Assembly (NCBI GenBank): GCA_016191645.1
Contig: JACPVQ010000123.1
Location: forward strand, 1-60,898
Source: Candidatus Solibacter usitatus
GTDB taxonomy: Bacteria; Acidobacteriota; Terriglobia; Bryobacterales; Bryobacteraceae
Length of the DNA stretch: 60,898 nucleotides
Direction: 5' to 3'
The notes beneath the pieces are model-generated. The model was given only the letters and a program-made list of their open reading frames with translations, was not told the origin of the DNA and did no database searches. Made by a program: the position numbers and the translations under genes. This document shows positions 2,527 to 41,113 of this stretch, piece after piece (positions within the stretch are counted from its first letter, which is position 1; each line of letters opens with the position of its first letter).

Positions 2527-4035
2527 TCAATCCGCGAATTGGAACGCGAACAGTTTCGCATTTGCCAACAGGAACCGCAGCGCTACCGGTTTCCCTTGGA
2601 GCGTAGAAAGTTCCTTGCCGCCCGTCCACTTCACGGGGAATGCCACGTCGTTCGCGGTGATAGGAGCGCAATCTTCGAGTTCGAATCCCTTTACCGGACG
2701 GCCCTCCGCATCCAGAATCTCTACCATTGCCGTGCCCAAAGCGGAGGCGTCGATATTCAGATGCAAAGACTTTCCGCGGAAAATCAGCGGAGGGGTTGTG
2801 AAGGCGCCGCCGGAGCGCGTCGCATCCACTGAAACAAATCCATCCAGCCGTTGCTTCGCCCGCATCAGCGCGCTGCGGCCTTTTAGACTGGCGGCGTGAT
2901 CCGTGGAACCGCCCGCGTAGTATTGATAAAGGTACGCGCCTCTTCGGATAAGGCCGAGTCCCATATAGATGCTGTGGCTGTCGGCGTCGCCTGGCAGTCC
3001 GCGCGAAACGTACGACCGCCGGTCCTCGCGCAGGAAAGTGATTCCGTCGCGGCTCACCGCCAATTGCACGTCCAACACTCCGGCCATCGGAATTCCATTC
3101 GATCCCGGAGGCGCAGTGTGACGGAACATCGATGGAAACGCCAGATAAACATCATCCGCCCATGGATACGGCTGCACGTTGGGAGTGTAGATGTCGCAAT
3201 TTTTCGGGTCCGACGAATCCGCGGCGATCACCGTAGGCATCTCCTTGGTAATGGCGGGGGGCCACACTTCAGTTCCTTTTGTGAGGAAACTCCACAGATA
3301 CCGTGGCGTCACGCCACTCTGAAACGGCCAAGTATTCCAAACTTGATCACGCGCGATCTCCGCGCGCACCGCCACACGCAGCGGATTCCATCCGCGCAAA
3401 TACGCGGCGTACTTCCCGATGCGCTGGTCCCAGAACAGCGTGTTCATCGAATCGGGATGAAACGGCAATACCTGTCTCTCGCGGTTCCAATGAATACCAT
3501 CCGGCGACGACATTAGCATCAGGCTGCCAATGGTACTGACGCCCAGCGCACTTGGCCGCTTCCCTCCGTAGGAGGCCAGCGTCTTGAATCGCTCCTGGGG
3601 CGGCGCAACCGGATCCAGCATCACCGCGCCTTCCCGAAAACTTCCCAGAACGATATTGTTCTCGCGAGATCCCTGAAACTCCACCAATCCCAATTTCGGG
3701 CGTTGCCAGTGAACACCGTCGCTCGATGTCGCGTAGCAGAGCCGCCCGCCGCCCTTCCCGGCGAAGGCCATGTACCACATCCTCAACATGCCCTCATGCT
3801 CAATCACAGAGAGGTAGCTGCCGATGTGCTCTTTTTCCCAATCCACCGTTCCTTCCAGAACGATGCCATCCTTTTGCGGCGGATTGACATTCAGCTGCAC
3901 GCCGCGTGCATTGCGAATCCATTTCCTGTCGATGAACAGCTGCTTGCGCGACCCGATATCGGCGGCGTCTGCCGCATGCGCGTTGCAAGCCGCTGCCGCG
4001 ATGGACCCCAGAAGCTGACGGCGGGAGAGCCTCAT
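2527..4035 (-). CDS. Tat-exported five-bladed beta-propeller protein, glycoside-hydrolase (GH32/43/130)-like
   Basis: 502 residues from the ATG at 4035, which sits one base after the TGA of the upstream receptor gene. The N-terminus MRLSRRQLLGSIAAAACNAHA carries a twin-arginine motif (SRRQLLG) and a cleavable signal. The body has repeated blade motifs of the type YATSSDGVHWQRP and MSSPDGIHWNRE, typical of secreted glycoside-hydrolase-like propellers of Acidobacteria and Planctomycetes. The last ~90 residues form a beta-sandwich-like tail (AMVEILDAEGRPVKGFELED). A homologous propeller is fused to the other receptor of the same operon (9865-14955), so the operon carries a duplicated receptor-propeller pair. 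Catalytic residues cannot be assigned by eye and the substrate is unknown. Confidence 0.7.
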   Translation of the reverse strand: MRLSRRQLLGSIAAAACNAHAADAADIGSRKQLFIDRKWIRNARGVQLNVNPPQKDGIVLEGTVDWEKEHIGSYLSVIEHEGMLRMWYMAFAGKGGGRLCYATSSDGVHWQRPKLGLVEFQGSRENNIVLGSFREGAVMLDPVAPPQERFKTLASYGGKRPSALGVSTIGSLMLMSSPDGIHWNRERQVLPFHPDSMNTLFWDQRIGKYAAYLRGWNPLRVAVRAEIARDQVWNTWPFQSGVTPRYLWSFLTKGTEVWPPAITKEMPTVIAADSSDPKNCDIYTPNVQPYPWADDVYLAFPSMFRHTAPPGSNGIPMAGVLDVQLAVSRDGITFLREDRRSYVSRGLPGDADSHSIYMGLGLIRRGAYLYQYYAGGSTDHAASLKGRSALMRAKQRLDGFVSVDATRSGGAFTTPPLIFRGKSLHLNIDASALGTAMVEILDAEGRPVKGFELEDCAPITANDVAFPVKWTGGKELSTLQGKPVALRFLLANAKLFAFQFAD

Positions 4036-4036
4036 A

Positions 4037-7000
4037 TCAGAACGTCGCCCGTACACCGAGTTGCACTGCGCGCGGGCTGGTTGCCGCCGTCGTCGTGCCG
4101 AATGCCGCGTTGGTCGGAGTAGTGTTCGCGCTCACAAAAAAATGCTGATTCCACCAATTGTAAGCTTCCGCGCGGAACTGTACTTGCAGTCTCTCGCCGA
4201 TGCGGTTGTTCTTGATAACCGAGAAATCGGTGTTCGTCTCGCGAGTATTGCGCACTCCGGCGAGCTTGCTGGGGAACGTACGAAGGTTCGACGCCAATTG
4301 TAGGGCGGTGGTTTTTTCGAACCCGGCATTTGTGTTGAACATCTGGTCGGGGCCTTGCGAGGATACGGGAAGGTTGTGCACATCGCCGCGAAAAAGCACG
4401 TTGCCCCACGCCAGCGGCGCGCCGCTTTGCAAAAACGAAAATGATTGTATCTGCCAACCGCTGATCAGATAGGAGGACGCGCCGCTCCATCCCGCGCCGT
4501 AACGGCGTCCTTTGCCGAACGGCAATTCGTAAAGAGCGAGGAAGCGGAAAATGTGCGGCCGGTTCGCCGCCGAAATCACACGTTCCGGAACAGGATCGCC
4601 TTCATTGAGATAGTCGAGGCCGTCTATGGTTTTGGCGAACGTGTACGACGTCTGCACCGTGAACCCGCGCGTCAGGCTTCGCTCCAATTCGACTTGCAGC
4701 GCGTGATACGTGCTCCATCCCTGGTTGTTGAAAAGCGTCAGCGCGCCGAACTCCGGATAGGGCCGCAGCAGTTGCGAGCGTGCGATAGTCCGCGATGTGC
4801 CGATGGTTCCGCCAACGCCGCTCACGCCGAAAAACGGATTGTTCACCAACCCCGTCAACTGATTGTTCACCGTGTTGTCGCGCTCCGGCGACCGGCTCAG
4901 ATAGCTGTTGGGAAGGGCATTCACATTGCTTGCGATGGGCATTTTCACCGTGTGGTTGCCGACGTAACGCAGATCCATCTTCCACACCCCAGCCATGCGC
5001 CGCTGCAAAGAGAACTGCCAGCGCTGGTTGTACGCATTGGGCATGTTCCCCAGTGCACGGAGATTGATTGCCTGGCCGGTAAAGGTGAGCGGTCCTAAGG
5101 TGCTGCCGGTCGGCTTGTCCAACCCAGCGGCGAAGGGATTGTCGAAAGTGCGGTTGAATGTCAGGCCGCTATCGGGCGTGGATAAGGACGTCGTAGTCAC
5201 ATCGAATCCCGGAACGCCGCCTTCGTTAGAGAAGAAGCGCTGCCCGTACGGAATGTAGAAGAGTCCGTAACCGGCGCGGATCACCATGTCCTGAGTCACT
5301 TGGTAAACGGCGCCGATGCGCGGCGCGAAGTTGTTGCGGTCCGTGGCGTAAGATGTTCGAGTCTGCCCCCCGACGCCGGAGAACAACACGCCGCCGCGAA
5401 CCAGGAATTGCGACGCCGCAATCTCCGGAATCGGACTGGCGGCATAATTCGCCCGCGCCGTCGCGCTCACCGGATTGGCCGAGTTGAAATCGAATCCGGA
5501 AAGTGAACGGTTGAAGCGCTCTGTCGGCGGGCCTTCGCGTTCGTAGCGCAATCCGATGTTCACGGTGAATCGCGGCGCGACCTTCCAATCGTCTTGAATG
5601 TAAAAGCCCTGATAAGTGGAGAGATTTGCCGCCTTCGAAGGCTGCGACGCCGTTGCCGACGCGAACCGGCCGAGCAGAAAATCCGACAGGCCCGCGCCGA
5701 TGGGCGGCGCAGGGGAATTGTCCAGCGGTCCATTACTATAGCTGCCCGGAAATTGATATCGAAAGAGATCTTCGTTGCCGCGGTTGTCGATGTACCAGCG
5801 CAATTCCGCGCCGAACTTGACGCCGTGCTGGCCCGCCACTTTCGTGAAATGAGCCGAGGCGTTGCGAATGTCCGAAATGTCGCGCGATCCGGCAGAGTTT
5901 GTGAACCCCGTGTAGCCGCCGACAACCACCGCCGGGAATCCCGTACGCGTTGTGTCCAGAAGCGATGTCAGGTTTCCCAGCCCGTAACTCTGAAAAGGCA
6001 AACCAAGACCCATCGGAGTGGACAGCCAATGAAAGCGCATGATGGAGGCGCGAAAATCCGCGATGAATGAAGAACTGATGGTCCACACATCGCTGAACGC
6101 AACGTCGCGATTCTTGCCGGTCAGGTCGATGCCGGGAATATCGGTGCGTCCGAAAAGCGTGTCGGAGGGAATGGTGCTCTGCGACAAGATCATGCGCCCA
6201 AACAAGCGGTGTTTATCCGTAAGGCTGTGATCCAGCCGCAGCGTGGAAGACCAGTATTTACGCGGGTTCGGAGCGTTGTTGTAACTGAAGTTGAGCTGGC
6301 CGTCGGCGGTGCCGGCGTTGTTCGGCTGCGGCCACAGAGCGCTCAGAGTTTTGGACATGGCATGAATCCTGCTGGCGGGAATGATATTCCCGGCAAGTGG
6401 CGTACGTTGGATGCGTCCGCCCGCAGCCGCGCGGCCCGTGTCCGGATCGTAGAGTTGATACAGACCGCCGATGCGCAGCAATTTCGAAAAATCTCCGCCG
6501 ATCTGTTCCGGCGAGGGAACGGTAATGAATGTTGGTGGATTGGGACTCAACGAACTCCAGCGTTCAAAACCGTAGTGAAAAAATGTGCGGTTCTTCCCGT
6601 TGAAGAGGCCGGGAATCCACACCGGCCCTCCACCCGTGAATCCGTAGCGCCGATAGGTGAAATCCTGACGAGGCACTCCGCCGCGATTCCCCGACCACGA
6701 ATTCGCATTCCATTCCGGGCTTCGGAAGAACCCGAGCGCGCTGCCGTGCAATTCGTTCGTTCCGCCTTTCAACACCAGGTCCACGGTCGCTCCGCCGGTG
6801 TGCCCGATACTCGAATCGAACGTGTTCGTTTGCACGCGCACTTCCTGCACCACCTCAGCGCTGGGGTTGAACGCCGAGCCGCCGCCCGCCAAGCTATTGC
6901 CGCGCTGCGTATTCGGCGTGCCATCCAGCGTGTACTCCGTGGTTCCCTGCGGCGATCCGTTGAATCGCGTTTGCGATGTGCCCTGCCGCTGAATAGGCTG

Positions 7001-7519
7001 CACGTCCATGCCGCTTCCACCGCGTCCGGCGGCGGACGCGGAATCGGCTCCCGGCAAGGCGAGAAAGAGGTAACTTGCGTGGCCTTGCCCAATTGGCAGA
7101 TCCATCACTTTACGCGTGCCGATGATCGTGTTCGTATCGGCATTCGTCGTATCCAGAAGTTGTTTTTCGGCCGTCACCGTCACGGTCTCTTTCAATTCGC
7201 CGATTTCGGCGCGCAAGTTGACTTCCACGCTACGGCCGCTGGTGAGCGCTACGTCGTCCACCACCGTTTTCTTGAAACCAGCACTGGCCGCCTCAATCCG
7301 GTAGGTGTCCGGGAAGAGTCCGGACACCTCGTAGTTGCCGCCGGCATTGGTGGTGGCAGTGCGTGTCGTGTTTGTGGATTTCGCGATCACGTGCACAGCC
7401 GCGCCCGGCACCGCCGCGCCCGACGCATCCGTCACACGCCCCAGGATCACAGAACGGTGCGCCTGTCCCCACAAATTCACAATCGCAGCAAGCGCCAGTA
7501 TCGACGTACGTAACCGCAT
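4037..7519 (-). CDS. Oar-like TonB-dependent receptor with carboxypeptidase-regulatory domain
   Basis: 1,160 residues from ATG 7519 (MRLRTSILALAAIVNLWGQ signal peptide). That start is one base after the TAA of the upstream esterase gene; an ATG-like start 21 codons upstream is not favoured because it lies inside that gene. Residues ~25-105 form a carboxypeptidase-regulatory beta-sandwich (VILGRVTDASGAAVPGA). A plug-like region follows (EYTLDGTPNTQ, TGGATVDLVLKGGTNELHGS), then a long outer-membrane barrel ending in the aromatic C-terminus GVRATF expected for BAM recognition. It probably imports oligosaccharides released by the enzymes of this operon. No SusD homologue is adjacent, as usual for Acidobacteriota. 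Function by family; ligand unknown. Confidence 0.88.
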   Translation of the reverse strand: MRLRTSILALAAIVNLWGQAHRSVILGRVTDASGAAVPGAAVHVIAKSTNTTRTATTNAGGNYEVSGLFPDTYRIEAASAGFKKTVVDDVALTSGRSVEVNLRAEIGELKETVTVTAEKQLLDTTNADTNTIIGTRKVMDLPIGQGHASYLFLALPGADSASAAGRGGSGMDVQPIQRQGTSQTRFNGSPQGTTEYTLDGTPNTQRGNSLAGGGSAFNPSAEVVQEVRVQTNTFDSSIGHTGGATVDLVLKGGTNELHGSALGFFRSPEWNANSWSGNRGGVPRQDFTYRRYGFTGGGPVWIPGLFNGKNRTFFHYGFERWSSLSPNPPTFITVPSPEQIGGDFSKLLRIGGLYQLYDPDTGRAAAGGRIQRTPLAGNIIPASRIHAMSKTLSALWPQPNNAGTADGQLNFSYNNAPNPRKYWSSTLRLDHSLTDKHRLFGRMILSQSTIPSDTLFGRTDIPGIDLTGKNRDVAFSDVWTISSSFIADFRASIMRFHWLSTPMGLGLPFQSYGLGNLTSLLDTTRTGFPAVVVGGYTGFTNSAGSRDISDIRNASAHFTKVAGQHGVKFGAELRWYIDNRGNEDLFRYQFPGSYSNGPLDNSPAPPIGAGLSDFLLGRFASATASQPSKAANLSTYQGFYIQDDWKVAPRFTVNIGLRYEREGPPTERFNRSLSGFDFNSANPVSATARANYAASPIPEIAASQFLVRGGVLFSGVGGQTRTSYATDRNNFAPRIGAVYQVTQDMVIRAGYGLFYIPYGQRFFSNEGGVPGFDVTTTSLSTPDSGLTFNRTFDNPFAAGLDKPTGSTLGPLTFTGQAINLRALGNMPNAYNQRWQFSLQRRMAGVWKMDLRYVGNHTVKMPIASNVNALPNSYLSRSPERDNTVNNQLTGLVNNPFFGVSGVGGTIGTSRTIARSQLLRPYPEFGALTLFNNQGWSTYHALQVELERSLTRGFTVQTSYTFAKTIDGLDYLNEGDPVPERVISAANRPHIFRFLALYELPFGKGRRYGAGWSGASSYLISGWQIQSFSFLQSGAPLAWGNVLFRGDVHNLPVSSQGPDQMFNTNAGFEKTTALQLASNLRTFPSKLAGVRNTRETNTDFSVIKNNRIGERLQVQFRAEAYNWWNQHFFVSANTTPTNAAFGTTTAATSPRAVQLGVRATF

Positions 7520-7520
7520 C

Positions 7521-9860
7521 TTATTTCCCTTTCGCCTCATTCAACCAATCGAATACGCGCTCCTGCAGCGGCCGCTTGAAATGATTGAAATCCGCCGGCG
7601 TGTCGAAGCGGAACGCTTCCTTTGCGCCCAGAACATCCCAGGCCTTTCTTGTTTCGGCGATCTCCGCCCTCACGTCGTCGATTCGTGCATAGCGATCCAG
7701 TTCCGGAGCAACCAGCAGTACGGAACGTGGAGCGGCCAGCGCAAGTGCGGCATCAAAGTCGAATGGCACTCGCGGTTCCTGCCCGGTGAAAAATCCAAGC
7801 CGCGGCATTAAACCGTGCAGATGAGAATAGTGGCGGATGCCTTCCACGCCGCGATCGGCGCTAGCCAAGCGCAGGGGGTCGAATCCGCTGACGGCTGCCA
7901 GCCCGCGCACACGGCTGTCCATGCCGGTCACCATCAGCCCGACTTTCGCCCCGAGCGAATAGCCCATTAGAAAAATGCGCGCGGGATCGATGAGATCAAG
8001 CGCCGCCGCGGCATCGATAGCGGCCACGGTATCGGCGGTCATCTTACCCATCAACGACCAGCGCGGATAGCGTTGATAGAACTCTTTCGCGTCGCGCACG
8101 CGCGTTCCGAATCCAATCTGATCGAAGGCAAGCACGGCGAATCCACGCTTCACTAAGCTCGGAAACGACGGGCGTTGATCCAATCGCGCTTCGGAACCGC
8201 GCGAGGACCACGGGCTCATGATGGACCACCCGTATTGATAGCTGTATCCGTGCAGCCAGATGACTAGAGGGAGTTTTACAGTCGTCTTCGCGGCAGGCAA
8301 AAACAAATCCGCCTTGAGTCCATCGCCGAACGGCAGTTCCTTCCACTCCATGCCTTCCTGACGAATAGCAGCTTGCACGGTGCGATCGCTCGAAGGTCGA
8401 TGAAATAACCCGGCCAGCCAGCCATCGCCGCCAGCTGTCTCTTCGGGCAAAATGTTGCGGCGTATGTTGCGCAGGAATGGAGGCTCTTCGCCCAAGGCCC
8501 ATTCCAGCTGCTTCCGAAGCGCGCCTCTCATAGCCGTAAATGCATCGGCTGACGATGGAATGCGGAATGTACGCGCCGTATGCGCGGCGGCATTCACGTT
8601 CTCCCCTGACAGCTTTTTCCAATTGTCGAAGCTGTAGCCGTGAATCCACGTCTCCGTTTTAGGACGCGGACGCCGTCCGAAAACCGCGTCGAAGAAGTCG
8701 ATGAAATTCTCAATGTCGCCGGCCGTGGTTTCGTGCTCTCCATCGCGCAGGTGGAGCCAGATGTTTTGTTCGCGGCCCAGGAAACGATAGACGCGCAGCG
8801 CGTCGCGATAGGCCTGCTCAAAGCCGAACGGGTTTCCCGCCGATTCGGCATAACCCGAATACAGCATCAGTCCGCGCGGGGCTACCAATGCGAGCAATGT
8901 GTTCTGATCAACGGGCAGTTTGTCTTCTCGACCGGCGAAAAAGCGCAGCCGCGGATGAAACCAGTGCGATTGCCCGCCAGCAAGCAATTCGATGCTCTCG
9001 TTGGCGAACGGCTCCGTCGTATAGCGCCACGGATCGCATTCACCGCTGTTGCCGCTGGAAGGAATCACCGCGCCGATGCGTTCATCGAATGCCGCCGCTA
9101 CTAATGCCTGCTTGCCATTGCGCGAATGTCCGGTCAATCCGATCTTGGCGCGATCGATCTCCGGCACGTTGTAGAGATAATCAATGGCACGCGATGCCGC
9201 CCAAGCCCATCGCGCGAGGCAGGAGAAGTCGAATTCCGGGTACACATCGATCCAGGCGTCCGAATCGTCGCCGTTGCCGTAACGCGGATCGGTGGCGTGA
9301 TAGATGCACACCGCATAGCCGCGACGAACGGCAGTATAAATCCACGGCCGGTTGCGCGCGTGATTCGTCAGAAACACCGGAAATGGCCCTTTGCCCTCAG
9401 GCAAGATGAGCTCGATTCGCAACGTTGCGCGATGCGATGGCCCGAAGCGCAGCGTCACTTCGCGGATGGTCGCGCGTCCTTCCTGGCGCGTTGCCGTGAT
9501 CTCCTCGGTGACGTTTCCGGGAGCGGGCGGCATGCGACCGAACATCCAATGTTCGATCTGCTTTCGCAGATACTCTTTCTGCTTGATCCACTGTTGCGGC
9601 GTGGCTACTCGTCCGCCGTCCCGCATCAATAAAGGATCGGGCAATCCCGGAATGGACGGCATTTTGTCAAAGTCAGGCGGCAGCTCTCCGGTTCTGCGCT
9701 GCCATTCCTCCAACGTCTTGTCGATGGCATTGATGCGGCCGTTCGCCGGGGGGCGGCTAGGGCGCAGCACCTGTAGCAGATGATGGAGAGTTTCTCGCTG
9801 ACGATCCTGGGGGAATGCGGGGACGGCGCAGGCAATGGCGATGCAGATGAGTGTTCGCAT
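7521..9860 (-). CDS. Secreted double alpha/beta-hydrolase: glucuronoyl-esterase-like domain plus acetyl-xylan-esterase-like domain
   Basis: 779 residues with signal peptide MRTLICIAIACAVPAFPQ. Residues ~100-400 resemble carbohydrate esterase family 15. The nucleophile motif is GHSRNGKQAL (family consensus G-C-S-R-x-G-K), followed by ERIGAVIPSSGNSGEC and a late His in LRDGEHETTAG. Residues ~480-779 form a second alpha/beta hydrolase with GYSLGAKVGL as nucleophile elbow, PELDRYA as a possible acid region, and DFNHFKRPLQER supplying the His. Both families remove ester decorations from xylan-type polysaccharides or lignin-carbohydrate ester links. Two esterase folds in one chain suggest successive deacylation of one substrate. 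It starts 4 bases after the upstream fusion gene and ends one base before the next receptor, so co-translation is likely. Confidence 0.72.
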   Translation of the reverse strand: MRTLICIAIACAVPAFPQDRQRETLHHLLQVLRPSRPPANGRINAIDKTLEEWQRRTGELPPDFDKMPSIPGLPDPLLMRDGGRVATPQQWIKQKEYLRKQIEHWMFGRMPPAPGNVTEEITATRQEGRATIREVTLRFGPSHRATLRIELILPEGKGPFPVFLTNHARNRPWIYTAVRRGYAVCIYHATDPRYGNGDDSDAWIDVYPEFDFSCLARWAWAASRAIDYLYNVPEIDRAKIGLTGHSRNGKQALVAAAFDERIGAVIPSSGNSGECDPWRYTTEPFANESIELLAGGQSHWFHPRLRFFAGREDKLPVDQNTLLALVAPRGLMLYSGYAESAGNPFGFEQAYRDALRVYRFLGREQNIWLHLRDGEHETTAGDIENFIDFFDAVFGRRPRPKTETWIHGYSFDNWKKLSGENVNAAAHTARTFRIPSSADAFTAMRGALRKQLEWALGEEPPFLRNIRRNILPEETAGGDGWLAGLFHRPSSDRTVQAAIRQEGMEWKELPFGDGLKADLFLPAAKTTVKLPLVIWLHGYSYQYGWSIMSPWSSRGSEARLDQRPSFPSLVKRGFAVLAFDQIGFGTRVRDAKEFYQRYPRWSLMGKMTADTVAAIDAAAALDLIDPARIFLMGYSLGAKVGLMVTGMDSRVRGLAAVSGFDPLRLASADRGVEGIRHYSHLHGLMPRLGFFTGQEPRVPFDFDAALALAAPRSVLLVAPELDRYARIDDVRAEIAETRKAWDVLGAKEAFRFDTPADFNHFKRPLQERVFDWLNEAKGK

Positions 9861-9864: not shown

Positions 9865-12800
9865 CTAGATCGACGGCCGGTCCCGGAATTGAAACGCGTA
9901 AATGTCAGTGTCGCGCAGCACGAATCGCAGCCGGATGGTTTGGCTCGCCAACTTCGCCAAACTCGACATGCCGTTCCACGACACCGGCCGCGAGATTTCG
10001 TTGGTGGAATGAATGATGTCGGCGTCCGCGAGCGCGAAGCCGGGCACCGGTTTCCCCTGCTTGTCCTGCACCTCTATTTGAATCTCGCCCAACGCCGATG
10101 TGTCGGCATTCAACACCAGTTGCTCGCCGGTGAATGTCATCGGCGGCGTCACGAACTCACCGCCGGCGTGTCCTGCCCGTATGGAAACAAATCCGTCGCG
10201 GCGCAGAACCACGCGGCTGATGGCGCGTTCCAGCGGCTGCGGTTTCACACCGGCGGCCGTCAACAGCCGGTTGTTTTTGTCATCGCGATCCCAGCCATGC
10301 GTATCGTTGGTGCCCAGGTAGTACAAGTACAACTCGCGCCCGTTGAGCGACGGCACGATTCCATATGCCGGATAGACGCGCCGCGAATCAAATTCGCCTT
10401 GCATCCCCGTGGGAATGAACGGCCGCCAATCGTAGCGGTTCCATTCGATGCCGTCGCGGCTGGCGGCGAAGCGGCCGTCCAACACGCCGGCATTAATAGG
10501 AAGCTCTTTGCGGAACTCCGTCAAATGCGCGCCGTAGTGATAATAAACCGCCGGAAACAAAAAGTAGGCATCCTGTGCGTAGGGGTATTTGACGGCGCCG
10601 TTCGTGTAAATGTCGATCAATGTTGTCTCCGCCTTGCGCAGCGGATCGTAGTGCCGGATATTCACTGCATCTGAACCAAACACATATTGCGTCTGATCGA
10701 TGTGCCCGAACTTGGCGAGATCGGCGGATTCGGCGCGCGCGACCATTCTGCCTTGCGGGGCCGGCTCTCCCGGTATCCTGTTGTTGCGCCGGACATAGGC
10801 GACATATTTGCCAAGGCGATCGTCGAAGAATATGGAATTCAGGGTATCCAGATGGTGCGGTTTTTTCGAATCGTCAAACACCATCACATCGCGATGCGTA
10901 TGCTTCCAATGGATTCCATCCGGCGACGAGAAGACTTGCAGCATGCGGCGAAACTCTTCCGGATTCGCCACCAGACGGAAGCGTTCCGAGGGCGGCGCTT
11001 TGGGGTCGATGAACACCATCACACCGTGCGTGCCTTCCTTTACACCGCCCGCGCCGTAGCCGAGTACAACATTGTTTCGCGTGTTTCCGTCAATCTTCGC
11101 CAAATGCAGCGCCGGCCGTTCCCAATGAATGCCGTCGCGCGAACGTGCATAACAGATGGCGTCCCGCGCCGTGTAGTAGACATGATACGTTCCGCTATCG
11201 AAGAGCACGCTCGCGTAGCCGCCCAGCGGCCAACCTTCCTCATTTGGAATGGACAGTTCGCCTGTCTTGCGCGGCTGGTGCACGACGAATTGGACGCCCT
11301 TCGCCTCACGAACGAAGCGGTCGTCCAGAAAAAGCTGCCGTTGCGCGCCAACGTCGATGGCGGGCTGCGCGAAAACCGGCGAAGCCAAGAGAGCTGCGAC
11401 GAGCACTGTCTCAAGCCATGCACTACTCTGCGAAGATTTTCTTTGCTCTGTGGGGCCAGGTCTCCAGACCTGCCGCGGGATCTCCAGATCCCGCGTGGCC
11501 TCGTGAGAGGCCACCGGCTGCCGCGCAGCCGAATCAGGCTTGCGATCACTCCCGGCAGAGGCGGTCTGGAGACCGCCTTGCAGATCTGGAGATCTGCCCC
11601 ACAGGCCGGGGAAAATGAAGTTAGGTGTATTGGTCAGGTTGTACGCCTCGCCTCGAAACAGCGCGCTGAATCGTTCCGTGATGGGAAACTTCTTCGACAA
11701 TGCGAAGTTGTAGTTGCGCCGTCCGGGCCCACGCGTGTCGGGCAGCGCGCGGCCGGTATTGCCGAAAGTGAAAGTATCGGGGACGGTGAACGCCGAAGTA
11801 TCAAAGTAACGGCCCAACCGGTCCTGCACGTCGCCCGAAAGAGTAGCGGAGCGGCCAACGTTGTTCGGCCGCTGCACGGCGGAAAACACTCCGCTGTTTC
11901 CGATGCTGGTCAAACCCAATGGGAATCCAATTTGGAACGTGGCCTGCCCGCTCAGACTCCAACCGCCAATCATGAAATCCACCGGGCGCGAAGCATTGCT
12001 GAGAAACGATCTTCCACGACCCACCGGCACTTCCCAACTATGCGCCATGGCAAGCCGTTGCGAAACGTCCTGCTGGGAAAGCGATTTTTCCGATCGCAAA
12101 TCATATTGATTCTGGATGGGCGGCTGCAGTCCCGTGATGTCGATCACGCGGCCCGCTCCACTATCGATGGTCTTGCTGGTTGTGTAGGCCAGCAGCAGAG
12201 TCAATCCCCGGGAGAAGCGCTTCTCGGCGGTTAGATTCATGCCGTGATACTGGGAGTATCCGGCCGTCTGAATGAAGGTTGAAACATTCAGATACTGCGG
12301 GAACGGGCGTAGCAACTGCCCCTGCGTGACGGTGGCTGCCGCCAATGGCCCCGTCGATACCTGGCCGGCGAAAGGATTGGCGATGAGACGGTTCAGATCC
12401 GTGCCGAACTTCTGGTACATCGGATGCAGTTGGTCGAACTGCACGGCGAGCGGCAGCCGGATTCCGCGCGTTCCCACGTAGGCCGTTTCAATGGTCCAGT
12501 TCCCAGGCAGCGAGCGTTGAATAGTGAAATTCCATTGCTGCATGTACGTGTTGTTCCTGCTGTTGCGCGCCGTCACGGTAAGAGTCTGTCCCATCAAGCG
12601 GCGATCCGCTTCCTTGTCGCTGCGAATGAAAATGCCCGCGGGATAAGGATTGCTGAACGGATAGAGCGGCGTCGCGCCGTCCAGGCTGGAGACCCATTGC
12701 GTGGTCAACTCCTCTCCCGACGCCCCGAAATTGCGCGAGTTCGGATATCCGATGCGCGGGCTGTAAACGATTCCATACGCTGCGCGAATAGCCATGTTCG

Positions 12801-14955
12801 TGCGCACTCTGTATGCGATGCCGATCGAGGGTCCAAAATTCCTGCTCGCCACATCAAACTGTCCGCGCGGCGAATTCTCACGGCCCGCCTGTGTCAGAAC
12901 GCCTTTCGGAGTCGCGCCGAAAAGCGGCTTCACGGGAAACTCGCGGTTGAAGTCGAAGTTGGCGAAGCGGTCATACTTTTCCGTGCGCGGCTGCTCGTAC
13001 TCCCAGCGCAAACCAAGATTGACGGTCAGCTTGCCCAGGCGAATGTCGTCGCTGGCAAACAGTCCGTAGTAGGCGTTGCGAATACGGAACGCAGGCGAGT
13101 ACTGAATCATGCCCGTGCCGTATCCGGTGAGAAACGATGCAAAGCCGTCGCCAGACCCGCGCGTGGCGCGCAACGGGTCGGGCCCCTGAGTGAAAGTGTT
13201 GGCGAATGAGTAGGCGCCCGCCGCCGCCGACGCGTTAAACGGGTTCTGGTTGTAGACGCGAACATCGACCCCGTACTTGATGGTGTGACGGCCGTGTATT
13301 TCCGTCGCGTCGGCAACCCATGCATGAATGTCGTTGCTGACGCGGCGCGGCGGCGCGGTTCCAATGTCTGTGTATCCGCTCATCGATATCTGCGGAAAGA
13401 TCTGCAGTTGCGCGTTCTTGGCGACGGTATCGGGAAACCCGAGATCCGCCAGCCGGATGTCGTTTAGATAGGTAGGATGTGTGTTCTGCACTTTCCGCGT
13501 CAGACCGTAACGGTAGTTCACCAATCTGTGCGGGCTCAAAATGTACGTGCCGTTGATCACCGCGTTCACGTAGGCCTGTACCTGATCGTCTCCGCCGGTG
13601 TCGGCGATCGTGCCGAACAAGGCCGGACTGACGATGCGCGTCACGGTGCGCGTCCCGCGGCCGAAGATACTGTGCTTTTCCGAGAAACGATGATCGAGCC
13701 GCAGAGACCCCTGATCGCTGTTTACGTCGTTCTGGTTGTTGAAGCCCCAATTAAACAGCTTCGCCGGGCCCTCGCCGGGACGGTTCGGCACCGGAATGAA
13801 CTGCGTCAGCCGCGCCGCCACTCGATCAATGCGAGCGGCCGGAATTCGATTGCCCGCAAATGGCGCGCGTGTGAAAGTGCGGCCGTCAGCCGACAGCTGC
13901 GTCGTGGCCGGATCGTAGATGGTGATAGCGCGATTGTCGGAAGTAAGAGTGGTTGAGAAATCGCCGCGACGCTGCTCTTCCGTTGGGAATGTGTTTACAC
14001 CGCCTCCGCCGTTCACATGATTCCGCGAGGCCTGGTATTCGGCAAAGAAAAACGTGCGGTTGCGCCGGATGGGCCCGCCGAACGTGCCGCCGATCATCTG
14101 GAATTGGAATTCGCCGCGCTGCTGCCCGCGCGTGTTGGAGAAGAAGTCGTTCGCTTGAAAAAGCTGATTCCGGAAATACTCCCAACCGTTGCCGTGGAAC
14201 TCATTGGTGCCGCCCTTGGTGGCGACGTTGATGGTTCCGCCTCCCGTGCGGCCGAACTGCGAACCGTTGTTCCCCGTCATCACCTTCACTTCCTGCGTGG
14301 CTTCCGGAGTAGGAGTGATGGCGTGATTGTTGTTCTGCGGCAGCATGACGGTCACGCCATCGATCAGAAACTCGTTGGTTCGATAGCGACCGCCTCCGAT
14401 GGAGATGTCCGAACTGTCGAAACCGCCTTCAGCGACGTAGCGGCCATCGGCCGATGGATTGAGAATCACGCCGGCGGCAAGGCTGGCCAGTTCGAAAACG
14501 TTTCTTCCAGCAAGCGGGATCTCTCGCGCCATGTTGGACGAGATCGACTGTCCCAGCGACGCCGACTCGGATTGCACGGGAGCCATCTTGTCGTCCACCG
14601 AAATGGATGTCGTCACGTCTCCCACTTCCAGCGTGATGTCGAGCCTCGTGCGATCATCCACTGCCAGGTTGAACCGCGTGCGCTCCACGGTCTTGAAGCC
14701 TTCCTGACGCACGCGCAAAGAATACGGCCCCGGCTTTAGATAAGGGAACTCGTAGTAGCCGGATTCGTTGGTTGCCGCGCGCGCCGCAACATTGGTCTCC
14801 GTATTCGTAACAGTGACGTCCGCGCCGGCCACCAGATGCCCGGACGCATCGCGAATGGTGCCCAGCACGGTGCCCGAAATATTCTGAGCACACAGCGGCG
14901 GAAGTACAAGCAACACAAGCGCGGCAAAGCGAAGAACAGGCCAAGAGTGGTTCAT
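9865..14955 (-). CDS. In-frame fusion: TonB-dependent receptor / repeat-derived linker / beta-propeller protein
   Basis: A single open frame of 1,696 residues. Residues 1-23 are a signal peptide; ~25-110 a carboxypeptidase-regulatory domain (TVLGTIRDASGHLVAGADV); ~125-1117 an Oar-type receptor with TGGGTINVATKGGTNEF. At residue 1117 the receptor breaks off after NTPNFIFPG, about 34 residues short of the end seen in its relatives. Residues 1118-1169 are translated from a palindromic repeat (WGRSPDLQGGLQT to QVWRPGPT). Residues 1181-1194 are a buried signal-peptide core (LETVLVAALLASPVFAQ), and the rest is a propeller protein homologous to the one at 2527-4035 (RQLFLDDRFVREAKGVQF). The insertion thus removed the receptor's stop and the propeller's start. 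Reinitiation at GTG 11404-11406 is possible but its ribosome site is weak. Both halves may be impaired. Confidence 0.8.
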   Translation of the reverse strand: MNHSWPVLRFAALVLLVLPPLCAQNISGTVLGTIRDASGHLVAGADVTVTNTETNVAARAATNESGYYEFPYLKPGPYSLRVRQEGFKTVERTRFNLAVDDRTRLDITLEVGDVTTSISVDDKMAPVQSESASLGQSISSNMAREIPLAGRNVFELASLAAGVILNPSADGRYVAEGGFDSSDISIGGGRYRTNEFLIDGVTVMLPQNNNHAITPTPEATQEVKVMTGNNGSQFGRTGGGTINVATKGGTNEFHGNGWEYFRNQLFQANDFFSNTRGQQRGEFQFQMIGGTFGGPIRRNRTFFFAEYQASRNHVNGGGGVNTFPTEEQRRGDFSTTLTSDNRAITIYDPATTQLSADGRTFTRAPFAGNRIPAARIDRVAARLTQFIPVPNRPGEGPAKLFNWGFNNQNDVNSDQGSLRLDHRFSEKHSIFGRGTRTVTRIVSPALFGTIADTGGDDQVQAYVNAVINGTYILSPHRLVNYRYGLTRKVQNTHPTYLNDIRLADLGFPDTVAKNAQLQIFPQISMSGYTDIGTAPPRRVSNDIHAWVADATEIHGRHTIKYGVDVRVYNQNPFNASAAAGAYSFANTFTQGPDPLRATRGSGDGFASFLTGYGTGMIQYSPAFRIRNAYYGLFASDDIRLGKLTVNLGLRWEYEQPRTEKYDRFANFDFNREFPVKPLFGATPKGVLTQAGRENSPRGQFDVASRNFGPSIGIAYRVRTNMAIRAAYGIVYSPRIGYPNSRNFGASGEELTTQWVSSLDGATPLYPFSNPYPAGIFIRSDKEADRRLMGQTLTVTARNSRNNTYMQQWNFTIQRSLPGNWTIETAYVGTRGIRLPLAVQFDQLHPMYQKFGTDLNRLIANPFAGQVSTGPLAAATVTQGQLLRPFPQYLNVSTFIQTAGYSQYHGMNLTAEKRFSRGLTLLLAYTTSKTIDSGAGRVIDITGLQPPIQNQYDLRSEKSLSQQDVSQRLAMAHSWEVPVGRGRSFLSNASRPVDFMIGGWSLSGQATFQIGFPLGLTSIGNSGVFSAVQRPNNVGRSATLSGDVQDRLGRYFDTSAFTVPDTFTFGNTGRALPDTRGPGRRNYNFALSKKFPITERFSALFRGEAYNLTNTPNFIFPGLWGRSPDLQGGLQTASAGSDRKPDSAARQPVASHEATRDLEIPRQVWRPGPTEQRKSSQSSAWLETVLVAALLASPVFAQPAIDVGAQRQLFLDDRFVREAKGVQFVVHQPRKTGELSIPNEEGWPLGGYASVLFDSGTYHVYYTARDAICYARSRDGIHWERPALHLAKIDGNTRNNVVLGYGAGGVKEGTHGVMVFIDPKAPPSERFRLVANPEEFRRMLQVFSSPDGIHWKHTHRDVMVFDDSKKPHHLDTLNSIFFDDRLGKYVAYVRRNNRIPGEPAPQGRMVARAESADLAKFGHIDQTQYVFGSDAVNIRHYDPLRKAETTLIDIYTNGAVKYPYAQDAYFLFPAVYYHYGAHLTEFRKELPINAGVLDGRFAASRDGIEWNRYDWRPFIPTGMQGEFDSRRVYPAYGIVPSLNGRELYLYYLGTNDTHGWDRDDKNNRLLTAAGVKPQPLERAISRVVLRRDGFVSIRAGHAGGEFVTPPMTFTGEQLVLNADTSALGEIQIEVQDKQGKPVPGFALADADIIHSTNEISRPVSWNGMSSLAKLASQTIRLRFVLRDTDIYAFQFRDRPSI
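11450..11603 (-). repeat. Modular palindromic repeat, copy 1 (inside the fusion gene)
   Basis: 154 bp with terminal inverted repeats GTGGGGC / GCCCCAC. Inside are five consecutive hairpins: CAGGTCTCCAGACCTG, GGGATCTCCAGATCCC, GTGGCCTC-GTGA-GAGGCCAC, CGGCTGC-CG-GCAGCCG and GGCGGTCTGGAGACCGCC, plus GCAGATCTGGAGATCTGC at the end. The same modules in the same order appear at 37,830 and 40,960. It reads without stops in the receptor frame. No transposase is encoded; likely a REP/MITE-like element moved in trans. Confidence 0.85.
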
Positions 14956-28287: not shown

Positions 28288-28359
28288 TGGCGGCTGTGGT
28301 GATTGTATTCTTCTTCGCCTGGCGAATTCAAACGGGGTAGAATCGCTCAAGGGGGCTGT
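28288..28359. promoter_or_regulatory. Divergent promoter region, sulfatase / receptor
   Basis: 72 bases between two divergent starts. On the plus strand GGTAGAATCG at 28336 offers a TAGAAT -10-like hexamer upstream of AAGGGGGC (ribosome site) and ATG 28360. A shared promoter would coordinate desulfation and uptake. No clear operator palindrome was seen. Confidence 0.4.
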
Positions 28360-31300
28360 ATGAAACTACTTCTTTCTTTGTGTCTGTTTACAATCTCGGC
28401 GATCGCTCAGGTTTCCTCCGGGACTATTGTAGGCATCGTCACAGATCCTTCCGGAGCGGCACTGCCAAACACCCGGCTCAGCGTGCGTCATTTGGCTACG
28501 GGCGACGTGCGCGAACTCACCGCCAACGAGCGCGGCGAATTCAATGTGCCATTCCTCCGCATCGGCGATTATTCTATCAGCGCGGCGGTGCAGGGTTTCA
28601 AAACGAAGACCATCACTCCCATCGCCGTGCGCGTCGATCAGACCGTGAACCTGACGGTCGGGTTGGAGATCGGCGCGGTTTCGGAAACAGTGGAAGTCAC
28701 CGCGGCTACGCCCCTGATCGATTCCACTACTTCCTCTCTCGGCCAGGTGATCGAGAACAAGAAGATTGTCGAACTGCCGCTCAATGGCCGTAACGTCTTT
28801 GCGTTGGGATTGCTTGCGGGCAATACGATCCCGGTCAGCGGCATGGGCACCAATCTGCCGTTTGTTGCCGGCGGCGGCCGCTTCTCTACCAATGACGTCA
28901 TGCTCGACGGCATCGATAACAACACCTCGGTAAACAACAACAGCATTGGACGCAACGGAATCAACTACACCCCCAGCGTCGATGCCGTAGCGGAGTTCAA
29001 GGTCAAAACGAACAACTACAGCGCGGAGTTCGGCCGGTCCGCGGGCGCCATTATCTCCGCCAATACCCGCAGCGGCGGCAACGATTTTCACACCAGCGCG
29101 TGGGACTTCCTGCGCAACGAAAAACTCGATGCGAACAACTTTTTTTCCAATGCCGGGGGAGTGAAGAGGCAGCCGTTCAAGCAGAATCAGTTCGGTTTCG
29201 CTGTAGGTGGACCGGTATTGATTCCCAAGGTGTACAACGGCAGGAATCATACGTTCTTCTTCGTGGATTATGAAGGGCTGCGGCGTCGCACATCCGCCAG
29301 TTCGAACATTCAGGATATTCCCCCCGCCGACTACCGGCAGGGCGATTTTTCGCGCTACCGCCCCATCATTTTCGATCCGCGAGCGCGCCGACTTGGGGCC
29401 AACAATCTGGTGGTTTCCACTCCATTTGCGGGCAACCGGATTCCGCAGGCGCAACTGAATCCGGGGTCCGTGGCGGTGATGGGCCTGCTTCCGCCGACCA
29501 ACTTCGGCGCTGCCGGAGCCGACACGCGAAACTATCTCCGCACCGCGTCGAACCCGTTCAGCAACAATCAGTACGACATCAAAGTGGACCAGCGAATCGG
29601 CGAGAAGAACACATTGTTTGGGCGCATTTCGCGCAGCATGGCCAACGATCCGAATCCGGGAAGTTTCGACGGCTTCATCGGCGGCGGCGGCGTGAATGTT
29701 CGCAACGCGGTCAACTCGGTGGTCAACGACACGCATATCTTCTCGCCAGCCGTGGTCAATGAAATCCGCGCCGGCTACACGCGCCAGAACGGAAGCTTCG
29801 CGGGGTTAGGTCCCTCCGGCGCCGACTTCGCGCGCAAGAATAATATTGCCCTGTTCCCATTTCCGGTGCAGAGTTTCCCCAGCCTCGCCTTTAATTTTTC
29901 CGGCCTGATCAATACCCAGAGCCAGTTTGCGGGGCTCGGCGGTGGAGATCCCAACTTCAATATCGAGAACTCATTTCAGCTCACCGACAATATTTCTATT
30001 TCGAAGGGCACGCACAACTTCAAGGCCGGCATCGACGCGCGCAATTACCGCTACGACGTAATCCGCGGCGGCGGCCAATACATCTTTGGATCCATCGTCA
30101 GCTCCTCGTCCGACACTTCCGGCTCCGGCGCGCCGCTGGCCGATTTTCTGATGGGTTTTCCCTCAGGCACGCAAGGCACGCAACTGCTCGATTGGTCGCG
30201 CCAACGTGATACCTACATCGGCAGCTTTTTCCAGGACGATTGGAAGGTTTCCCGCAAGTTGACGCTCAACATCGGCATTCGTTATGACCTCTACACGCAG
30301 CCCATCGACTTTCGCGACCGCGGCGGTTTGTTCGACGCCCGCACGGGAAAATATGCCTTGCCGGGGAAAGACGGCTTCACCCGGGCCATTGTCGCCGGCG
30401 ATCACAATAATTGGGCTCCGCGCTTCGGCTTCGCCTACAGCGTCAACCGCAAGCTGACCACTCGCGGCGGTTTCGGTATGTTCTATTCGCGGCGCGAGAT
30501 GAATCAGGAGGTGACGCAATTCGGCGGCAACATCCCCAATACGCCGAGCATCGTCTTCCCATCCATCAGCGCCAGTGGAACTGTCGCCCCTCCCGTATCG
30601 CTCAGCACCGCCTTGGTTGCGCAGCCGACCGATCCCACGCTTTCCAACTTTACGGCGGCACGCCCGCTAGCCACGCTCATCCGCTCCGCCGACTTTGCAA
30701 ATAGCGCCAACCCCTATACCTACCAGTGGAACTTCAGCATTCAGTACGAGCTGTTTCGCAACTCCGTGTTCGAGATTGCCTACTCTGGTTTGCGCGGCGT
30801 TCGTTTGGTGAGCCGCGTCAACCTCAATCAGATTCCTTGGGAAGATGCGATTGCCGGGCGGAATCTCCAAGCGAACCGCAAGTACCCCCATGTGAACAAC
30901 GCTGTCGGGTTGGATTCGGCTACCGGACGTTCCGCCTACGACTCTCTGCTGCTTCGTTATGAGAAGCGTATGAGCAACGGCCTCAACTTCCTGGTGAATT
31001 ACACCTATTCAAAGAACTTCGACATCAATGGCACCGGCGGGTCGAGCGCGTTCAGCCAGAACGGAGGAACCACATTCCCCGTCGATTCCTGGAATCAGCA
31101 CAACGAGAAGGCGCTTGGGTCGCTGGACGTTCCTAAGGTTTTCGTGGCCAGCGCCGGATACGAACTCCCCTTTGGACGCGGCAAGAGATTCCTCAGTCAA
31201 AATGGCCCGGCCGCATACATTCTGGGCGGCTGGCAATTGAACGGAATCTTCTATCACCGCAGCGGATTCACCACTGACATCCGCACGACGCGCATTCCGG

Positions 31301-31716
31301 CCGCCAATCAACTCTTTGCGACGATCAACGTTCCGGACCGGGTTTCCGGCCAGTCCACGATTCTCCCCAACGCGGGTGTGGACGGCTATTTTAATCCCAA
31401 CGCCTTCGCGCAACCCGGTACTGCCACCAGCGCAACGGGAGTGCCGCTGATCCGGTTTGGGAATTCCCAACGCCGCGTCGGCCGCGGTCCCGGTTCGGAC
31501 AACATGGACTTCTCGCTATTCAAGAACTTCCATATCCGCGAGCGCGTGAACCTGCAATTCCGCGCCGAGGCATTCAACCTGACCAACACTCCGACGTTCT
31601 TCCTGCCGGGAGCGACCAATACGGCGCTCACCATCGGCAACGCGAACTTCGGGCGATTGTCGAGTTCTTCCGCCACGGGCCGGCAGCTCCAGATGGGATT
31701 GAAGTTTCTGTTTTGA
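28360..31716 (+). CDS. Oar-like TonB-dependent receptor, paired with the sulfatase
   Basis: 1,118 residues from ATG 28360 after AAGGGGGC, with signal peptide MKLLLSLCLFTISAIAQ. Carboxypeptidase-regulatory domain (IVGIVTDPSGAALPNTRLSV), plug-like region (LPLNGRNVFALGLLAG, VMLDGIDNNTSVNN), long barrel and terminal aromatic signal LQMGLKFLF. Its last 139 bases recur at 32,354-32,492 with about a dozen differences that all leave the protein unchanged. That shows a functional paralogue once lay next door. Confidence 0.88.
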   Translation: MKLLLSLCLFTISAIAQVSSGTIVGIVTDPSGAALPNTRLSVRHLATGDVRELTANERGEFNVPFLRIGDYSISAAVQGFKTKTITPIAVRVDQTVNLTVGLEIGAVSETVEVTAATPLIDSTTSSLGQVIENKKIVELPLNGRNVFALGLLAGNTIPVSGMGTNLPFVAGGGRFSTNDVMLDGIDNNTSVNNNSIGRNGINYTPSVDAVAEFKVKTNNYSAEFGRSAGAIISANTRSGGNDFHTSAWDFLRNEKLDANNFFSNAGGVKRQPFKQNQFGFAVGGPVLIPKVYNGRNHTFFFVDYEGLRRRTSASSNIQDIPPADYRQGDFSRYRPIIFDPRARRLGANNLVVSTPFAGNRIPQAQLNPGSVAVMGLLPPTNFGAAGADTRNYLRTASNPFSNNQYDIKVDQRIGEKNTLFGRISRSMANDPNPGSFDGFIGGGGVNVRNAVNSVVNDTHIFSPAVVNEIRAGYTRQNGSFAGLGPSGADFARKNNIALFPFPVQSFPSLAFNFSGLINTQSQFAGLGGGDPNFNIENSFQLTDNISISKGTHNFKAGIDARNYRYDVIRGGGQYIFGSIVSSSSDTSGSGAPLADFLMGFPSGTQGTQLLDWSRQRDTYIGSFFQDDWKVSRKLTLNIGIRYDLYTQPIDFRDRGGLFDARTGKYALPGKDGFTRAIVAGDHNNWAPRFGFAYSVNRKLTTRGGFGMFYSRREMNQEVTQFGGNIPNTPSIVFPSISASGTVAPPVSLSTALVAQPTDPTLSNFTAARPLATLIRSADFANSANPYTYQWNFSIQYELFRNSVFEIAYSGLRGVRLVSRVNLNQIPWEDAIAGRNLQANRKYPHVNNAVGLDSATGRSAYDSLLLRYEKRMSNGLNFLVNYTYSKNFDINGTGGSSAFSQNGGTTFPVDSWNQHNEKALGSLDVPKVFVASAGYELPFGRGKRFLSQNGPAAYILGGWQLNGIFYHRSGFTTDIRTTRIPAANQLFATINVPDRVSGQSTILPNAGVDGYFNPNAFAQPGTATSATGVPLIRFGNSQRRVGRGPGSDNMDFSLFKNFHIRERVNLQFRAEAFNLTNTPTFFLPGATNTALTIGNANFGRLSSSSATGRQLQMGLKFLF

Positions 31717-31736
31717 TGAAGCGGTAGAATGTGGGA

Positions 31737-31958
31737 ATGACGCGCAAGGTCAGTGTCGTGATCGAGCAGGATGAGCGTGGGTGTTACGCTTGGTGCCCGG
31801 AACTAAAGGGTTGCCAGTCCCAAGGAGCGTCGGTTGAGGAAGCTCTCGTCAACATCCGTGAAGCGATCGAGCTGTTTCTGGAGACCATGACCGCAGAGGA
31901 GCGTTCCGCAACACTCAGCAAGGAGATTCTGACCACGGCGGTCGAAGTTCATGCCTAG
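31737..31958 (+). CDS. hicB: HicB-family antitoxin
   Basis: 73 residues (MTRKVSVVIEQDERGCYAWC). ATG 31737 is used; a GTG two codons earlier is also possible. The partial RNase-H-like HicB fold is recognisable: a first strand (VSVVIEQDERGCYAW), CPELKGCQSQGASVEEAL and a helix ending in REAIELFLETM. It neutralises HicA-type mRNA endonucleases and often represses its own promoter. Lies 20 bases after the receptor stop and overlaps the next frame by 8 bases. Here the antitoxin gene precedes the toxin, as in many HicB-first modules. Confidence 0.75.
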   Translation: MTRKVSVVIEQDERGCYAWCPELKGCQSQGASVEEALVNIREAIELFLETMTAEERSATLSKEILTTAVEVHA

Positions 31959-32085
31959 ACCTCCGCGCCACCGGATCTGTGCCAAGGGGAATCGCCGAGT
32001 GGTGGTTCCGTTTCACGGCGGTACGACGCTGCACCCAAAGATTGTGAAGCAGGTAATTGAGGCAACGGAGGAAGAATCCTCCTAG
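31951..32085 (+). CDS. Short HicA-like toxin, N-terminal part missing
   Basis: 44 residues: MPRPPRHRICAKGNRRVV..., then VPFHGGTTLHPKIVKQVIEA. The second half matches the HicA core strand and helix (V-x-V-P-x-H, L-x-P-x-x-x-K-x-I), while the usual first helix of about 20 residues before the catalytic His loop is absent. The frame has a stop at 31930, so no longer version can be read. Either a deleted, inactive HicA or a mini-toxin. Overlaps hicB by 8 bases. Too short for standard gene callers. Confidence 0.55.
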   Translation: MPRPPRHRICAKGNRRVVVPFHGGTTLHPKIVKQVIEATEEESS

Positions 32086-32116
32086 CCGCAAGCCGTGTTC
32101 AGCACCACTCATCTAC

Positions 32117-32353
32117 CTTCGCGATAATAAAAAGGCTGCGTATTATTGTGTCTGTTGGCGCGGCACCGCGTTTGCAGCTCGCCAGTTGGATCCACTTACC
32201 TGAACTATGTTCGAGAACCCCTCGGAAAAGCTGCAACGGGTCTTCAAAAACCTGCGCGGCGAAGGCAAGCTTACCGCTGAGAACATGGAGGCGGCTCTCA
32301 AAGAGATCCGCGTTGCCCTGTTGGAAGCGGACGTGTATTTTCGCGCCGTCAAG
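32117..32353 (+). pseudogene. Truncated duplicate of the ffh promoter and first ~49 codons
   Basis: 237 bp nearly identical (6 mismatches by eye) to 33144-33380, in direct orientation 1,027 bp upstream. It includes the -10 region (GATAAT here, TATAAT in the intact copy), the leader, and ATG 32207 for MFENPSEKLQRVFKNLRGEG. It stops exactly after ...FRAVK and runs into a receptor tail in another frame. A chimeric reading frame continues to 32614 but is not expected to be functional. Confidence 0.85.
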
Positions 32354-32492
32354 CCTGACCAATACCCCTACGTTCTTCCTGCCGGGAGCGACCAATACGG
32401 CGCTCACCATCGGCAACGCGAACTTCGGGCGGCTGTCGAGCTCCTCCGCCACCGGCCGACAGCTCCAGATGGGTTTGAAGTTTCTATTTTGA
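32354..32492 (+). pseudogene. 3' remnant of a second TonB-dependent receptor gene
   Basis: 139 bp matching 31578-31716, encoding the same final 45 residues (LTNTPTFFLPGATNTALT to LQMGLKFLF and TGA). The differences are all synonymous, so this copy evolved as a working gene before being beheaded. It is fused directly to the ffh fragment, marking a deletion junction. Confidence 0.85.
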
Positions 32493-32537
32493 TAGGCAGT
32501 TCCGCGGTAAGGCGCTACGATGGAAGGAGGACAGAAC

Positions 32538-33114: not shown

Positions 33115-33143
33115 TGAGGCCCTCGCCGGCATTCGGAACGCCG

Positions 33144-37829: not shown

Positions 37830-37964
37830 GTGGGGCAGATCTCCAGATCTGCGAGGCGGTCTCCAGACCGCCTCTGCCGGGTGTGACTGTGACATCGGAT
37901 CTGGCTGCTACGCAGCCATGCGGGATCTGGAGATCCCGCGGCAGGTCTGGAGACCTGGCCCCAC
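37830..37964 (+). repeat. Modular palindromic repeat, copy 2
   Basis: 135 bp with GTGGGGC / GCCCCAC ends and the modules AGATCTCCAGATCT, AGGCGGTCTCCAGACCGCCT, GGCTGC-TAC-GCAGCC, GCGGGATCTGGAGATCCCGC and CAGGTCTGGAGACCTG. It lacks the GTGGCCTC/GAGGCCAC hairpin of copies 1 and 3. Lies just upstream of wecB and leaves a stop-free frame running into it. Confidence 0.85.
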
Positions 37965-40585: not shown

Positions 40586-40960
40586 ATGCTGGCACCACAG
40601 GCGACCTTTACCATGACGGTGCTCGGCCACCTGCTGAGCACGGGAACCGCCTTGCTTCTGCTGCGGCGCGGTTCGTCGAAGCGTCTGCGGTTGCTGACCT
40701 TGACGGTGGCGCTGATGTCGCTTTCGCAAACTCTGTTCCTGCTGGAAGCTGTGGGTCAATGGGGACAGGGTGCGTCGCTGAGCGGATTCGTCCACCAATT
40801 CATGATGGTGGTGCTCCCGCTCATCGCCTTGTACCTGCTGCGTTTGGAAATCCGCGACCGCTACTACTCCAACAAGAGCCTGCAGGTTGTGGAATACGTG
40901 GCACCCTCCGGGGACGAAGCCCCGGTGGAAGACAAGCCCGCGGCAAAAGCCTTGGCCTAG
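40586..40960 (+). CDS. Small membrane protein of the polysaccharide cassette
   Basis: 124 residues, three hydrophobic helices (TVLGHLLSTGTALLLL, LTLTVALMSLSQTLFLLEAV, FMMVVLPLIALYLLRLEI) and a charged tail. No family recognised. Its TAG stop at 40958-40960 ends on the first G of repeat copy 3, so the element abuts or created the stop. No strong ribosome site is visible. The 116 bases between it and the transferase show nothing else. Confidence 0.6.
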   Translation: MLAPQATFTMTVLGHLLSTGTALLLLRRGSSKRLRLLTLTVALMSLSQTLFLLEAVGQWGQGASLSGFVHQFMMVVLPLIALYLLRLEIRDRYYSNKSLQVVEYVAPSGDEAPVEDKPAAKALA

Positions 40961-41113
40961 TGGGGCCAGGTCTCCAGACCTGCGAGGTGATCTCCAGATC
41001 GCCTCTGCCCGGAGTCCGATAAATCCCGACTTGGCTGCATAGCAGCCGATGGCCTCTGGCGAGGCCATGCGGGATCTGGAGATCCATTAGCAGGTCTGGA
41101 GACCTGTCCCCAC
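40960..41113 (+). repeat. Modular palindromic repeat, copy 3
   Basis: 154 bp in the same orientation as copy 2. Modules: CAGGTCTCCAGACCTG, GGTGATCTCCAGATCGCC, TTGGCTGC-ATA-GCAGCC, ATGGCCTC-TGGC-GAGGCCAT, GGGATCTGGAGATCC and CAGGTCTGGAGACCTG, between GTGGGGC and a slightly diverged GTCCCCAC end. Relative to the others the inner arms have changed in matching pairs (GGTCT/AGACC versus GATCT/AGATC), as expected for selected stems. Confidence 0.85.

Follow-up and report, generated by a model that had tools for sequence, protein, structure and literature searches.

REPs are recognized by a 5'-terminal GT(A/G)G tetranucleotide followed by a palindrome (PMC3686654), and published descriptions of REPs and REPINs speak of inverted pairs that occur in hundreds of copies, mostly in extragenic positions, and of RAYT genes flanked by inverted REPs (PMC3116915, PMC2817692, PMC3686654). 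Acidobacterial RAYTs have already been mentioned, and ~600 copies of transposase-associated structures have already been published for Solibacter usitatus (PMC3733652, PMC6006769). The repeat described here has in common with the published REPINs and RAYTs the head, the palindrome, the inverted pair, the copy number, the RAYT flanks and the extragenic bias, but the copy on which we report lies inside a long reading frame and its host is an acidobacterium.

Palindromic repeats have been found in reading frames before. In other bacteria, REP dimers within ORFs, some of them at ORF ends, encode tens of residues (PMC3733652); our copy resembles these as a dimer in an ORF and differs in joining two genes after the loss of a stop, and the section of that paper on REP dimers in ORFs does not describe a two-gene join. 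Rickettsia palindromic elements (RPEs) are likewise palindromic repeats in frame within genes, although this is true of many RPEs (PMC3733652), whereas a gene reads into 2 of 47 REPINs of the present family. The enterobacterial RU-1/2/3 elements are MITE-like and have open frames that add residues to proteins, as here, but they are a different repeat, and the abstract mentions neither a link to RAYTs nor a two-gene fusion (Delihas 2007, PMC2759123). Among the titles and abstract openings of the open-access literature searched, none names a REPIN that fuses two genes. The event is most likely a further instance of an already described kind of repeat, and an accidental break rather than a two-in-one protein.

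The window, by which we mean the whole 60,898-nt stretch of DNA that was analysed, is the entire contig C146 of a draft genome, G000 (4.47 Mb in 267 contigs, 79% complete). Its relevant features are given below, where G004 stands for a same-genus genome, probably the Acidobacteria MAG SZAS-6, with a syntenic operon on its contig C169.

9865..14955, minus strand: continuous frame of receptor, REPIN-encoded stretch and PropB
11605..14955, minus strand: TonB-dependent-receptor-like outer-membrane barrel gene without its last 28-29 codons and stop (Pfam; 72% identical to the G004 orthologue)
11450..11602: REPIN core of 153 nt, two inverted GTGG-headed palindromes around internal hairpins, stop-free in the fused frame
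11422..11449: probable diverged and shortened copy of a module that otherwise flanks many REPIN copies (short-mer recurrence)
9865..11406, minus strand: PropB, 513 codons from a plausible GTG start of its own at 11404-11406, with a short hydrophobic leader
7521..9860, minus strand: esterase-like gene (Pfam GCE_fung and alpha/beta-hydrolase matches), 4 nt past PropB
4037..7540, minus strand: second receptor, intact, 62% identical to the member of the G004 operon
2527..4056, minus strand: PropC, a PropB paralogue (40% identical) and the next operon gene
37830..37964: REPIN copy of 135 nt
40960..41113: third REPIN copy of the window, with no gene-like frame reading into it

The original prediction held that a single open frame leads from the receptor through a repeat into a second gene, and this agrees with the ORF list of the window, in which the minus-strand frame 9865-14955 starts with ATG and continues for 1,696 codons without an internal stop (1,707 residues when counted stop-to-stop). 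A repeat does lie at the junction as well, its 153-nt core at 11450-11602 abutting the end of receptor homology, which stops at residue 1116-1117, around position 11605. This repeat is not a product of chance, since its end motif, GTGGGGCAGRTCTCCAGAYCTGC, has 211 + 215 (426) matches in the draft genome at up to 3 mismatches and the reversed control has 0.

The assignment of the repeat to the REPINs is firm, because it shows the features by which REPs, REPINs and RAYTs are defined in the literature. Each end has a 5' GTGG followed by the palindrome GGCAGATCTCCAGATCTGC, full copies are inverted pairs of the end motif around further hairpins, and the count of end motifs in the draft genome is as high as expected for such elements. 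A DNA search of the same genome found the window copy and 39 others at 82-90% identity (40 scored of 310 first-look candidates). From 76 paired entries, among them register duplicates and pairs of other lengths, 47 copies measuring 145-160 nt were kept; these were the best-scoring or first-listed and not a random sample, with genes recognized by a codon-usage model in frames of at least 100 codons. A gene-like frame reads into only 2 of these 47 copies, as expected for mainly extragenic elements. Folded as DNA, the draft consensus reaches -65 kcal/mol (z -11.7) and the window copy -61.5 (z -8.9).

A cognate RAYT flanked by inverted REPs is found on contig C62, where a forward REP at 18-40 and a reverse REP at 714-736 enclose a RAYT frame at 3-650 (locus L136), and its tyrosine transposase scores 83.2 bits against NF047646 (REP-associated tyrosine transposase; equivalog cut-off 80). 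A second RAYT gene, on contig C167 (L144), has an NCBIfam score of 89.3, and its locus has no REP of the window family; similar sequence is present at both ends of that gene and is perhaps its own REP family. The ES(F/Y)DR motif has F in the C62 RAYT and Y in the C167 RAYT. The end motif of the window family was present in 16 of 101 genomes, the source genome included, with 1 to 33 matches in each of the other 15, and palindromes in other genomes are often altered on both sides, e.g., GGCCTCCAGGCC. Of the 11 further genus members, 9 lacked it, including G004.

REPIN cores have neighbours that recur with them. Three recurrent modules, AGAGCAGCACAGCCGCAACCAAAG..., ACAAACTCGGGAAATGTCCAAACT... and ATCGGTTTTCATCACGATTCG..., adjoin REPIN cores, which thus lie in larger mosaics. 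Either of two module motifs matched 36 of 110 outward flanks, a set outside which the PropB-side flank of the window copy falls owing to an extra base in its REP end. Of 72 loci, 2 share a 15-mer with the stretch at 11422-11449, 1 shares a 17-mer with it and 0 contain its last 16 nt. Read as 11449-11422, the sequence is suggestive of a shortened REPIN-flanking module. Elsewhere in the window, the REPIN at 37830-37964 falls among the opening codons of a frame that starts with TTG (37808-39091; UDP-GlcNAc 2-epimerase-like, by eye), and an automatic start call for this frame could take in the REPIN copy.

Upstream of the repeat, the fused protein has a CarboxypepD_reg Pfam match at the receptor N-terminus and an OMP_b-brl_4 match at residues 245-1118 (E 8e-199) that covers profile positions 1-816 of 838 and leaves the end of the model absent. 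The receptor had been predicted to stop about 34 residues early; the truncation is real, and the figure is slightly high, since the orthologue in G004 has 28 residues, the last of them F, beyond a shared FPG, the point at which the REPIN starts in the window. The compared receptors were drawn from the window, its genome and its genus, with the fused frame left out and with L068 and L069 sharing one C-terminus. After the last aligned position, all 21 of them retain 29-36 residues, ending in F (19), Y (1) or W (1), and the absence of the terminal aromatic residue from the window receptor is thus just as had been proposed. BAM-dependent assembly is expected to fail when the terminal strand and aromatic residue, the BAM beta-signal, are lost, and the window receptor, which lacks both, is probably not assembled. 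Compared with a functional OMP_b-brl_4-type TonB-dependent receptor, the gene has the barrel family match and lacks the complete C-terminus.

The rest of the receptor gives little sign of damage. Its frame is clean across 1,116 codons, with no other lesions. Its identity to four outgroups is 49.5-50.5%, compared to 51.3-53.8% for the G004 orthologue, i.e., lower in 4 of 4 comparisons but only slightly, and over the last 140-150 residues the window and G004 receptors are within five residues of each other when set against the outgroups. The intact frame and these identities do not show decay, and decay, if real, would have to be recent. The event itself would be recent if the receptor is broken, because the frame is clean and the rise in rate at most slight.

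Downstream of the repeat, PropB still has a plausible start codon. The original prediction had its signal peptide buried in the fusion, and the signal-peptide-like stretch TVLVAALLASPVFA does sit within the open fused frame; the length of the leader equals that of the G004 orthologue. By eye, the ribosome-binding site of the GTG is weak. PropB has no Pfam or NCBIfam match at E 0.01 and a single match among PDB sequences (E 0.044), and its AlphaFold2 model, with a mean pLDDT of 35, was unusable, as was a second AlphaFold2 model at 28. These results do not confirm the propeller enzyme of the original prediction, which would be a beta-propeller glycosidase/sialidase-like protein. The corresponding family hint for PropA, its neighbour in G004, is a BNR_2 match under the family cut-off.

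Comparison with the orthologous locus, which had been proposed as a check, shows separate genes and no repeat in G004. There, the order is receptor, PropA, PropB, second receptor and PropC, and the three joints read have gaps of 3-9 nt. The window has the receptor, the REPIN, PropB, the esterase-like gene, the second receptor and PropC, in this order. Identity between the two genomes is 72% for the receptor, 57-59% for PropB and 62% for the second receptor. One relative, G004, is informative for this locus. Five further receptors at ~50% identity had neither PropA nor PropB adjoining in the stretches fetched. No PropA orthologue was found in the draft genome (the best-scoring match has 28% identity, others 31-34% over part of the length) or in ten other members of the genus (matches of up to 41%, over part of the length), and the data would fit a loss of PropA here as well as a gain in G004. 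The glucuronyl-esterase/alpha-beta-hydrolase-like gene at 7521-9860 belongs to the window operon and is missing from this place in G004. The start of PropC looks twin-arginine-like by eye (SRRQLL), in contrast to the short Sec-like leader of its paralogue PropB.

This comparison also shows that the locus is not the plain repeat insertion that had been claimed. The 43 nt between the REPIN core and the start of PropB are too few for the lost end of the receptor, which with its stop takes ~87 nt in G004, and PropA, the third gene, is absent too; a simple insertion is therefore rejected. A random chimeric contig is rejected on the collinearity with G004. The explanation that we favour, and hold to be quite likely, is that a receptor-enzyme operon has undergone a small deletion at a place now marked by a REPIN, a short repeat of a kind that RAYT transposases mobilise; the receptor is then probably broken, and PropB is translated from its own start codon or produced as a tail. 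The REPIN would have inserted at, or close to, the receptor gene's 3' end, and the DNA up to PropB would have been lost at the time of insertion or later, possibly, for instance, between two REPIN copies. The nearly stop-free REPIN would then let the receptor frame continue into PropB by chance, and PropB would either be initiated at its GTG or form the tail of a fusion that misfolds. The locus is a clear example, with an orthologous locus available, of two genes that a relative keeps apart meeting at a REPIN. It also illustrates that, when a stop codon is lost, a stop-poor repeat can leave a long open frame, which would be annotated as one protein.

The openness of the repeat is central to this explanation. 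Full copies have a mean of 4.51 open frames of 6 (n=47), against 1.63 in composition shuffles. Since a frame of the repeat is open in about three cases in four and a join falls in register in one case in three, we estimate that a stop-replacing join of two same-strand genes gives such a frame about 1 time in 4, and an in-frame join needs no selection because the repeat is open in most frames. The window copy is the only one of the 47 with gene-like sequence on both sides in the same frame. On contig C89 (L013, 17138-18544, minus strand), an acetamidase/formamidase-like gene enters a REPIN and gains ~100 codons; most of its genus homologues can be aligned only as far as residue 362-376, three of them as far as 402, and the gene may also have lost part of its own end. 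It is a second gene without its own stop ahead of the repeat. Of the 6 frames of the REPIN consensus 5 are open, for which P is 0.012 under a first-order Markov model and 0.006 when the sequence is shuffled with its structure preserved. The copies are also more open than expected from random substitution, which was simulated in two versions with 0 of 300 runs as open in either. We nevertheless did not accept that the repeat is selected for translatability, given that column shuffles reached the observed openness in 14 of 500 cases, nearly all examined copies lie outside genes and the copies are related.

The join could also be an artefact, in which short reads bridged the repeat and the assembly skipped the DNA, e.g., PropA and the receptor end, between two REPINs. 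REPINs and contig ends do coincide in this genome: of 100 listed end-motif places, at least 21 lie <200 nt from a contig end, counting only contigs of known length, against 2.4 expected, and the assembly is in 267 contigs and 79% complete. These contig ends, however, are breaks and not joins, and the join in the window is collinear with G004. Against the other copies compared, a subset of those in the genome, 11381-11660 matches exactly over 46 nt at most, and common final assembly k-mers are longer than that. PropA has no orthologue in the draft genome, though ~21% of the genome is missing, and a skip would still place a REPIN in the receptor end. We therefore regard this reading as unlikely, while giving it more weight than any of those that follow. 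One of these is a regulatory arrangement, with the REPIN forming an mRNA hairpin that limits read-through, PropB starting at the GTG at 11404-11406 and the truncated receptor being dispensable. The very stable fold of the element (calculated as DNA, z -8.9) and the unchanged leader length relative to G004 would agree with it, but no stop precedes the PropB start, so that the stop-start spacing of the relative is lost, and the ribosome-binding site looks weak; we find this arrangement very improbable.

The remaining readings take the fusion as a working protein. The barrel tail, via the REPIN-encoded linker, would keep PropB on the periplasmic side of the outer membrane, and the frame open throughout, the at most slight increase in receptor rate and the tight spacing of the operon genes in G004 are all consistent with this. 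On the other hand, the protein would have lost the last strand and terminal aromatic residue retained in 21 of 21 other receptors, the hydrophobic leader of PropB would be buried, and by our estimate about one such event in four would yield an in-frame join. Receptor fusions were found at none of the 55 loci of PropB relatives (L166 in this set being the same place as L022), and the longest other frame with a PropB match, among the matches listed, has 833 residues. A working fusion thus appears improbable, and a little doubt more attaches to its bolder form, in which the nearly stop-free REPIN is a ready-made linker and the receptor-enzyme is expressed with a REPIN-encoded hinge and a periplasmic enzyme. 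If that were true, a stop-poor REPIN family would be a recurrent source of protein tails and fusions, the second copy tailing the amidase-like gene being another instance, and a functional fusion in general would mean that a non-coding mobile repeat can lead directly to a new multidomain protein. The original prediction left the choice between a new surface-tethered enzyme and a broken pair. The broken pair is the better supported of the two. A surface-tethered enzyme does not follow from the fusion, because TonB-type barrels have their C-terminus on the periplasmic side. The tail would lie there, and even a fusion that is produced would not bring PropB to the surface.

Another part of the window has a repeat structure of its own. 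The region at 31578-33381 contains two interleaved direct repeats, one of 238 nt at 97% identity and one of 140 nt at 92%, by which the 3' end of a receptor gene (28303-31716) and the start of an ffh/SRP54-like gene (33234-34598, by eye) are each present twice. The pattern is as if the junction segment had been tandemly duplicated.
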